From positions 1 to 45,706 of the forward strand of contig NZ_CADCWD010000075.1 of the NCBI RefSeq assembly GCF_902806315.1: a stretch of 45,706 nucleotides of DNA, read 5' to 3'. Positions 32,536 through 33,910 of the stretch are shown piece after piece. Below the pieces are notes generated by a model. The model saw only the letters and a list, made by a program, of their open reading frames with translations. It made no database searches and was not told the origin of the DNA. Both the position numbers and the translations under genes were made by a program. The DNA is from an uncultured Sphingosinicella sp. Its GTDB lineage: Bacteria; Pseudomonadota; Alphaproteobacteria; Sphingomonadales; Sphingomonadaceae. Positions within the stretch are counted from its first letter, which is position 1; every line of letters starts with the position of its first letter.

Positions 32536-33006
32536 ATGGGCGTGAAGGCAAAACCGGAAGGCTATCATAGCGTTACACCCTATCTGATCGTGGACGGCGC
32601 GGAGGAGGCGATTCGCTTCTACGCGGAGGCGTTCGGCGCGACCGAGCAGATGCGCCTGCCGATGGGCGACAAGATCGGCCATGCCGAGGTGAAGGTCGGC
32701 GACAGCGTGATCATGTTGTCGGACGAATGGCCCGATTACGGCAAGCTCGGGCCCAAGTCCCGCGGCGGCGCGACGGCGGGGTTGATGATCTACCTGGAGG
32801 ATGTCGACGCGGCAGTGGAACGGGCGGTCGCAGCCGGCGCAACGGTCGAGCGGCCGGTGGAGGATCAGTTCTACGGGGACCGCTCGGGAACGGTGATCGA
32901 CCCGTTCGGCCACAGCTGGACCCTGGCCACCCATGTCGAAGACGTGCCGGAAGACGAACTGCAGCGCCGCATGGCGGAGTTCTCGAAACAGGCGGAACCT
33001 GCATGA
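32536..33006 (+). CDS. VOC/glyoxalase superfamily (PhnB-like) protein
   Basis: A 156-residue dimeric betaalphabetabetabeta-fold protein. It shows VTPYLIVDGAEEAIRFYAEAFGATE, GHAEVKVGDSVIMLSDEWPDYG and the C-terminal DRSGTVIDPFGHSWTLATHVEDV, the usual signature of PhnB-like (DUF1428/3-demethylubiquinone-type) VOC proteins. Candidate metal ligands are His48 or so in GHAEV and the terminal Glu/His; catalysis is unproven. AGGAGG precedes ATG 32536. Immediately after its stop begins the inverted-repeat-framed DUF559 unit. Confidence 0.85.
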   Translation: MGVKAKPEGYHSVTPYLIVDGAEEAIRFYAEAFGATEQMRLPMGDKIGHAEVKVGDSVIMLSDEWPDYGKLGPKSRGGATAGLMIYLEDVDAAVERAVAAGATVERPVEDQFYGDRSGTVIDPFGHSWTLATHVEDVPEDELQRRMAEFSKQAEPA

Positions 33007-33031
33007 CCTTAGTCTCTCCCCAAGCCCGCTT

Positions 33032-33065
33032 GGGGAGGGGGACCATGCGAAGCATGTGGAGGGGT
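33032..33065. repeat. Left inverted repeat of DUF559 unit
   Basis: Begins GGGGAGGGGGACCATGCG, contains the small palindrome CATGC-GAA-GCATG and ends TGGAGGGGT. It equals the reverse complement of 33416-33450 except for one missing G after GCATG. Confidence 0.9.
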
Positions 33066-33067
33066 AG

Positions 33068-33475
33068 ATGGCGCAAAACAGGATGGTCATTCGAGCTCGC
33101 GAGCTGCGTCGGCTGACAAGTCTGCCGGAAGGCGTTCTCTGGCAGGTGCTGCGGACCCGCCCTGGGGGTCTGAAATTCCGAAGGCAGCACCCAATCGGCG
33201 CCTTCGTTGTGGATTTCTACTGCGCGGCGGTGAATCTGGTCGTGGAAGTCGATGGGGCGAGCCATGGCATGGGCGGGCAGGCTCAGCGGGACGCGCGGCG
33301 TACCGCCTGGTTGAAGTCGCAAGGATTGCGAGTGCTACGATATACGGCCGCGGACGTACTGCACGACCCGCAGGCCGTGGCTTCCGGCATTGTCGCTCGG
33401 GTGTCGGGCAAAACCACCCCTCCACCATGCTTCGCATGGTCCCCCTCCCCATCGCGCGCGATGGGGAGGAAGTAA
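33068..33475 (+). CDS. DUF559 (Vsr-like endonuclease fold) protein
   Basis: A 135-residue protein of the DUF559 family, which has the PD-(D/E)xK/Vsr-like nuclease fold. The core FRRQHPIGAFVVDFYCAAVNLVVEVDG (37-63) carries the putative acidic site Asp49, Glu60, Asp62. RDARRTAWLKSQGLRVLRYTAADVL (75-98) follows, as in the family. The last ~20 residues (TTPPPCFAWSPSPSRAMGRK) are translated from the right inverted repeat, and the stop codon is in host flanking DNA, so the tail is not family sequence. ATG 33068 lies three bases after the left repeat with no ordinary RBS except the GGAGGGG of that repeat. Function and activity unknown. Confidence 0.8.
   Translation: MAQNRMVIRARELRRLTSLPEGVLWQVLRTRPGGLKFRRQHPIGAFVVDFYCAAVNLVVEVDGASHGMGGQAQRDARRTAWLKSQGLRVLRYTAADVLHDPQAVASGIVARVSGKTTPPPCFAWSPSPSRAMGRK
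33416..33450. repeat. Right inverted repeat of DUF559 unit
   Basis: ACCCCTCCACCATGCTTCGC leads into ATGGTCCCCCTCCCC: 35 bases, reverse complement of the left repeat plus one extra G/C. It codes for the C-terminal tail of the DUF559 frame. Confidence 0.9.
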
Positions 33476-33504
33476 AAGGCCGGCCGAGTATTGCTCGACC
33501 GGCC
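33474..33504 (-). terminator. Terminator of the MliC-like gene
   Basis: On the minus strand GGCCGGTCGAG (33504-33494) pairs with CTCGGCCGGCC (33488-33478), with one G-T and a 5-base loop, followed by TTTT (33477-33474). The DUF559 stop codon lies inside this tract, so the DUF559 unit abuts an older host terminator. Confidence 0.85.
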
Positions 33505-33526
33505 CTGCGTTACGATGAGAAGGTGA

Positions 33527-33910
33527 TCAGGCCTTGCAGCTCTGGCTGCCGCCCTGCGGCGACGAGTAGGTGATCTGCTCGCTATTTCCGCTGACGGTGA
33601 AGCCGTCGGCGGACTTGTAGGCGCCACCCGCCGTCTCCGCGGTGACCGTCGCGAGCGGGGGCTCGGCGCCCTTCTCCTTGCGGACCACGGCGGTGTTGTT
33701 GGACATGAAGTCGATATAGACGAGGCTGTTGTCCTTGCACCGATAGGTGCGGCTCGCCTGGATGGCGGGCGGGAGCTCGACCGGCGGTGCCTTTGCGAGC
33801 TCGGCGGCTTGAGGATCGGGAGTTTCGACGACCTCGGTCTCCGCCTGGCAGGCGGCGAGAGAGAGGGTGGCCGCGACGCACGCGGCGGCGAGGGAAAGGG
33901 TCTTTTGCAT
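33527..33910 (-). CDS. MliC/PliC-like lipoprotein (lysozyme inhibitor)
   Basis: A 127-residue lipoprotein: signal peptide with lipobox SLAAC (Cys21), an acidic/proline linker (about 22-50) and a small beta-barrel. The MliC domain shows YRCKDNSLVYIDFMSNNTAVV, GGAYKSADGFTVSGNSEQITY and a terminal QSCKA, with cysteines in YRC and QSC likely bonded. Members inhibit C-type lysozyme in the periplasm. It is followed by its own terminator and diverges from the 34055 gene. Confidence 0.8.
   Translation of the reverse strand: MQKTLSLAAACVAATLSLAACQAETEVVETPDPQAAELAKAPPVELPPAIQASRTYRCKDNSLVYIDFMSNNTAVVRKEKGAEPPLATVTAETAGGAYKSADGFTVSGNSEQITYSSPQGGSQSCKA

Follow-up and report, generated by a model that had tools for sequence, protein, structure and literature searches.

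We found that a block of about 0.45 kb at positions 33016–33469 of a 45,706-nucleotide stretch of DNA from an uncultured Sphingosinicella sp. (contig NZ_CADCWD010000075.1, assembly GCF_902806315.1; the whole stretch is called the window below) consists of a single DUF559 nuclease gene framed by two inverted, double-hairpin REP units. This block is likely to be a whole minimal mobile element, that is, a REP pair together with a DUF559 nuclease matched to its own repeats, which would act and spread as proposed below, and it is best read as a nuclease-borne counterpart of the REPIN-RAYT system.

The left REP unit (33016–33064, plus strand) is composed of an outer hairpin (33016–33037), a linker, GGGGACC (33038–33044), an inner hairpin (33045–33055) and a tail, GTGGAGGGG, which ends at 33064 and is directed towards the gene. 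As the original prediction held, the gene starts three bases further on, the unit being followed by TAG and then by the ATG at 33068 of a plus-strand gene for 135 amino acids (33068–33475). This gene reads through the core of the right unit, GGGGAGGGGGACC-ATGCGAAGCAT-GGTGGAGGGG on the minus strand (33417–33450), and the right outer hairpin occupies 33444–33469 (no strand assigned). From the outside inwards, both sides have the order outer hairpin, GGGGACC, inner hairpin and GGTGGAGGGG, and the predicted framing by inverted hairpin repeats was borne out by a perfect 26-nt inverted match between the arms (33031–33056 and 33426–33451). The left copy lacks one G of the consensus (GCATGTGG instead of GCATGGTGG), so that the arms are unequal by one base. 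The outer hairpins, which had been described as mirrored, do mirror each other in structure, but in letters only partly: both stems contain CTCCCC/GGGGAG, and deeper in AAG/CTT stands against ATCG/CGAT.

The insertion is bordered on the left by a host VOC/glyoxalase gene (32536–33006, plus strand) and on the right by a small, convergent host gene (33527–33910, minus strand), and a terminator-like inverted repeat of the host (33479–33505, no strand assigned) lies between these two neighbors. The right neighbor had been called MliC-like; a host gene does border the block there, but the Pfam search gave it no family. The stop codon of the DUF559 open reading frame (33473–33475) lies just past the right repeat, and thus the repeat encodes about 19 residues at the C terminus, in line with the 20 or so that had been claimed. 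The stop itself had been placed in the host terminator; it adjoins the inverted repeat at 33479–33505. When folded as single-stranded DNA, each end formed two hairpins (left, z −2.45, with 4 of 200 shuffles equally good; right, z −5.93, equalled by 0 of 200). A search with the 34-nt right core, allowing at most three mismatches, gave one match in the window and none in 100 shuffles, and the Rfam search returned a single sub-threshold match, which we regarded as chance.

Pfam assigned the window protein to DUF559 (PF04480, E 7.1e-30), a Vsr-like nuclease of the PD-(D/E)XK type and the sole family above its cut-off; MTES_1575 fell below its own cut-off, and the search found no transposase domain in the protein. 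As shown by Foldseek with an AlphaFold model (pLDDT 74, below 50 in the repeat-encoded tail), matches were obtained to 3hrl (2.0e-6) and 3r3p (1.1e-4), and the second-best structural match was the catalytic domain of the homing endonuclease I-Bth0305I. These matches agree with the Vsr-like fold that had been predicted, E. coli Vsr itself (1vsr) being a weaker match (E 0.023). In two DUF559 alignments (24 and 9 sequences), E21, E60, H66 and D75 were invariant in both, and D49 was invariant in one and conserved to at least 90% in the other; we take residues of this kind to be catalytic. No function was gained from PADLOC (DpdF, E 3.6e-6 over 51 residues; HEase, 0.0066), from NCBIfam (PRK09767, far under its cut-off) or from PHROGs (one function-unknown family).

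The source genome (2.69 Mb in 97 contigs, about 96% complete) contains five DUF559 genes, each of which lies between inverted REP-like hairpins, as shown by score for L009, L011, L012 and L013 and by a 97% match over 29 nt for L010. The five use no fewer than three types of repeat, and within one gene both ends match. In one of these copies (L012, 1501–1800), an in-frame TGA interrupts the domain and the inverted ends still match.

To score framing, we took 180 bp from either side of the domain, reverse-complemented the downstream stretch and aligned it with the upstream one, applying a cut-off of 16; the score is independent of strand. Family loci were drawn from among the DUF559 matches listed (E up to about 1e-26). 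In the first batch, 80 of 91 loci, the source genome's five included, were framed, compared with 1 of 537 shifted windows; L030, L032 and L042 were excluded from this count owing to short flanks, and an earlier round of scoring had excluded these three and L010 for the same reason. The second batch comprised the next listed DUF559 rows minus three near contig ends and loci already taken, and here 37 of 40 lower-listed loci were framed, compared with 2 of 234 shifted windows, one of which scored 35. Among 20 extra loci chosen for their likeness to the window protein, 19 were framed, bringing the family total, with these likeness-chosen loci included, to 136 of 151. The genomes compared are related, and counts across them are not independent. 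Eleven of the 91 and 3 of the 40 loci were unframed, and among the 14 loci scoring below 18 many had, by eye, a one-sided hairpin of the REP kind. Ends mispaired between different genomes also reached 16 in 127 of 455 trials (median 12, versus 30 for true pairs), indicating that the arms have a common G-rich character; 97 of the left arms of 99 framed elements fell into one G-rich class.

One question raised by the original prediction was whether flanking repeats of this kind are systematic for DUF559 genes; the affirmative answer within the family became a mixed one farther afield. In a draw of Pseudomonadota, DUF559 occurred in 108 of 299 genomes, and of 27 new, best-scoring loci across the phylum, taken with 260-bp flanks, 13 were framed and 14 unframed, with the best control also reaching 16 in 3 of the 27. 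All eight loci from metagenome-assembled genomes (Deltaproteobacteria, Chloroflexi and Gammaproteobacteria), which were picked by likeness to the window protein, were framed (20.5–44.5, with controls at or below 11.5). From a plasmid collection we counted 17 loci out of 39 and 44 records: 7 were clearly framed, 9 were unframed, among them E. coli ycjD and loci of N. gonorrhoeae, Azospirillum, Methylobacterium and Photobacterium, and one, from Deinococcus, was borderline (18.5 against a control of 17.5). On a plasmid of the cyanobacterium Pseudanabaena, a framed locus (L191, score 57) had inverted palindromes of ~83 nt of the CCCCCTAAATCCCCC type, and two further loci (L196, Sinorhizobium meliloti Ak57 pSymB, score 104; L181, score 50.5) had inverted palindromes of roughly 114–132 nt that look like RIME repeats. 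The association of DUF559 with repeats is thus broad but not universal. A framed DUF559 gene on a Sphingomonas parapaucimobilis plasmid (L185, 1477–1872) lies within a transhydrogenase operon, after the subunit alpha gene. At the ends of four loci (L170, L173, L264 and L280), the palindrome, as judged by eye, extends beyond the outer hairpin by a few AT-rich bases, such as ATTCCTCCCC/GGGGAGGAAT; this extension may reflect target choice.

The type of repeat follows the type of protein. We compared 99 framed elements (score at least 16) that encode distinct proteins and come from 51 genomes; protein identity and repeat similarity were correlated over pairs from different genomes (rho 0.434), a value that none of 2000 permutations reached (maximum 0.144). 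For 68 of the 99 elements, the one with the nearest protein in another genome also ranked among the most similar 10% in its repeats.

The repeat also forms a population of its own. From the window we derived a core pattern, GGGGAGGGGGACC-N4-22-GGTGGAGGGG, here called REP-A, which has 27 copies in the source genome and was found in 54 of 119 family genomes, at up to 112 copies per genome; the reversed pattern, used as a control, was found in none of the 119. Where a genome encodes a close relative of the window DUF559 (E <= 1e-25, a cut chosen after the list was viewed), the core was present in 34 of 39 cases and missing from 5; the corresponding counts were 19 of 63 for genomes whose DUF559 proteins are all of other types and 1 of 17 for those with no DUF559. 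At least five copies were present in 27 of the 39 genomes with a close relative, where gene-bearing elements add to the copies, and also in 13 of the 63 with other DUF559 types only. The fixed 23 bases of the core contain no GTAG. CGTC REPs are marked by a CGTC tag and a CCA tail, and one CGTC-REP pattern, tried on 111 loci, had no match at a distance of up to 400 bp from DUF559.

The geometry of neighboring copies was examined in ten fully listed genomes (128 copies) among the 54 with a REP-A match. Of 37 neighbor pairs at most 500 bp apart, 34 were arranged head-in, and each of the other three arrangements was seen once. The gaps of the head-in pairs fell into two classes, 12–83 bp (27 pairs) and 350–392 bp (7 pairs), and all seven wide pairs bracket a DUF559 match. 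Head-in pairing at two spacings, with the wide ones around DUF559, indicates that the gene-free pairs resemble the element minus its middle. The inner stems covary: base pairing leaves a loop of at most 5 in 57 of 71 distinct inner regions (mean for shuffled sequences, 4.2), and the one gene-free doublet that was folded formed one long hairpin (−47.3 kcal/mol, z −8.4). REPINs are mostly inverted doublets, and the 34 head-in pairs of 37 agree with this pattern; singlets occur too.

We compared occupied and empty sites at two loci, and at both the presence or absence of the element was seen between species. At the window locus, the block was found in none of 11 same-genus relatives that keep both neighbors, which answers in the negative whether orthologous loci always carry it. 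By eye, nine of the 11 have a short spacer in which a terminator-like hairpin occupies the corresponding position; of the remaining two, one has an unrelated open reading frame in the gap (L064) and the other a lone hairpin (L065). The second locus, in a large genus, adjoins what is presumably a carboxyltransferase-like gene, and here 20 of 151 genomes were selected to cover different match patterns. The DUF559 element was present in 8 of the 20 alleles, four in each orientation, and 12 alleles were without it, four of them with a gap of just 9–24 bp. When the gaps were scanned, a REP-A pair was present in all eight alleles with the gene, and none of the 12 alleles without it had any REP-A-like sequence; one of these 12 has its left gene outside the stretch scanned. 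Thus, gene and repeats come and go together. In one gene-free allele (L268), the gap is occupied at 1034–1457 by a GIY-YIG gene (PF01541, E 2e-17), the inverted ends of which are 46 nt long and of the CGTC type. We looked by eye for target-site duplications in the empty and filled sites of the two loci, with no clear result, because the empty sites came from different species and were too diverged for a duplication to be defined; nor did we find a pair of strains that showed a site cleanly before and after insertion.

Within a single genome (G045), two copies of the element are 98% identical and a third is 89% identical, and at a fourth place about 180 bases inside the gene are missing while both REPs are kept. 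The occurrence of short inverted-repeat derivatives, one of them visibly internally deleted, beside a full-length element is reminiscent of MITEs and their autonomous partners; the partner here differs in that it encodes a nuclease only, with no DDE or other transposase. The copies in this genome (L160–L162) share about 30–39 bp past the REPs, including an inverted AGCGGAC/GTCCGCT, and sequence further to the right of the element also matches elsewhere in the genome. The element in this genome may be larger, or may be seated within another repeat.

In a homing model, only the gene would be selfish: the nuclease would cut bare REPINs, repair would insert the gene with the REPs as homology arms, and the REPs would have spread otherwise. 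The structural match to I-Bth0305I is in keeping with this model, as are the position of the gene in the spacer of a REP pair and the common flanks of copies within one genome. Homing predicts, however, a bare REPIN at gene-free sites, and no REP-A-like sequence was seen in the gaps of the 12 gene-free alleles at the second locus; nor was a REP pair seen in the 11 relatives at the window locus, where two (L064 and L065) have one REP-shaped hairpin each, although both samples are small. It also leaves unexplained the spread of the REPs and the match between REP count and DUF559 type. We regard homing as unlikely. Vsr-like homing endonucleases of the I-Bth0305I kind do resemble the window protein in the fold of the catalytic domain and in the working idea of spread driven by a nuclease, but the element differs from them in having its own multicopy palindromic frame, with gene-free derivatives that multiply, and in that its gene-free alleles are without repeats.

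Another explanation is that the hairpins are moved by a RAYT or an IS200-type transposase and that DUF559 is mere cargo. GTAG REPs elsewhere are tied to RAYTs, according to two studies (PMC3733652, PMC3116915). The Y1 transposase family PF01797 was, however, absent from the source genome, despite its 27 REP-A cores, and across the family it occurred in 21 of 119 genomes, compared with 102 of 119 for DUF559 among the matches listed, and the passenger explanation does not account for a repeat type that tracks the protein type. Since no RAYT was found in the source genome, a RAYT is not likely to be the mover here and was rejected as such for this genome, and we consider transport as cargo very improbable. 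The window element lies outside the RAYT class, as it has no Y1/HUH transposase domain (PF01797), and the original prediction of a transposase-less element agrees with the domain content of the protein and with the absence of PF01797 from the source genome. The likening to REP-associated tyrosine transposases that came with it is apt as an analogy. The inverted flanking REPs that serve as a criterion for RAYT elements are present in the window element, and like REPIN-RAYT it has a small gene between inverted REPs of a genome-wide type, gene-free inverted doublets and an enzyme type that matches the REP type. It differs in that the enzyme is a Vsr-like PD-(D/E)XK nuclease and in that the REPs are G-rich double hairpins.

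We also considered whether the gene is a resident one, encoding a Vsr-like repair nuclease that is inherited and not mobile, with the hairpins serving as terminators, expression controls or binding sites. Consistent with such a function, 87 of 99 framed open reading frames stop at or past the start of the right arm. Reading into the repeat is thus the rule; 1 of the 99 framed elements has an in-frame stop within the domain. In Caulobacter, VsrA, a protein with the same DUF559 domain, is tied to cytosine methylation and acts with ScmA methylation (PMC12907096). This tie suggests a repair role for DUF559. VsrA differs from the window protein in having been studied as a repair nuclease linked to ScmA methylation, and the words "palindrom" and "inverted repeat" are absent from the text of that study (PMC12907096). 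A resident gene is difficult to reconcile with the absence of the block from 11 of 11 relatives at the window site, the two orientations at the second locus, the several copies per genome, the gene-free pairs of the same repeat and a repeat type that follows protein type across genomes, and we consider it very unlikely. That G-rich repeats are so frequent that any short gene becomes flanked by them would fit the REP-A copy numbers and the mispaired ends that reached the cut-off, but we give chance framing next to no credence, and for the family sample we rejected it, given the rarity of shifted windows at the cut-off (1 of 537 and 2 of 234) and the head-in arrangement of 34 of 37 neighbor pairs.

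A similar design was seen in genes of a second nuclease fold. Among the 30 best-scoring GIY-YIG loci of the family genomes (L281–L310), 22 were framed by inverted palindromes, compared with 2 of 180 controls. The flanking repeats belong to families other than those of DUF559, namely CCGTTCGTCCTGAGC... (for example at L306) and CGTC-tagged REPs, of which plain examples lie at two loci (L301 and L308). CGTC-tagged REPs have been described as palindromic, mostly inverted dimers, mainly in alpha-proteobacteria, with no known dedicated transposase, and the same work left untagged palindromes open (Di Nocera 2013, PMC3733652). The DUF559 repeats resemble the CGTC-tagged REPs in these respects, and the latter differ in sequence and tag and in lying here at GIY-YIG genes, not DUF559 genes. 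The GIY-YIG nuclease is a candidate for the enzyme of the CGTC REPs. No literature linking DUF559 or Vsr-like proteins to REPs was found in a search that covered few subscription journals and no bioRxiv.

Returning to the element as a nuclease-borne REP pair, we infer from sequence comparison that DUF559 may cut its repeats and that the element may thereby move. The nuclease would recognize the paired hairpins, which probably form in single-stranded or cruciform DNA, and would cut there; host repair and replication would then join the broken ends or the freed strand to a new site, giving a new copy. Enzymes of the PD-(D/E)XK type hydrolyze DNA and have no known strand-joining activity, so that insertion would need help from the host; this repair-dependent insertion is the weakest step of the proposed mechanism. 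Loss of the gene with retention of both REPs at a spacing of 12–83 bp would generate the scattered miniature REPIN-like repeats, which could be moved in trans.

REPs are common bacterial repeats, and for the GTAG type the enzyme is known. A one-gene nuclease element would supply the enzyme for a large G-rich class of REPs and would give DUF559 a function; it would also represent a kind of mobile element that is below the size of an insertion sequence and has no strand-joining enzyme of its own. The GIY-YIG framing, if it holds, would make the discovery more general, with two nuclease folds that each have their own class of REP. The chances are about even that DUF559 with G-rich REPs and GIY-YIG with REPs of the CGTC and CCGTTCG types together constitute a second, transposase-free route by which REPs arise and spread, each of the two being a minimal selfish unit, a lone nuclease gene within a REP pair, with REPIN-like repeats as the gene-free offspring. 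Judged by the loci compared, this route would span Pseudomonadota, Chloroflexi and, with one locus, Cyanobacteria, and, if real, it would provide the missing enzyme for the CGTC REPs and the long rhizobial palindromes. An old question would thus be reduced to a direct one, namely whether DUF559 cuts its own REP.
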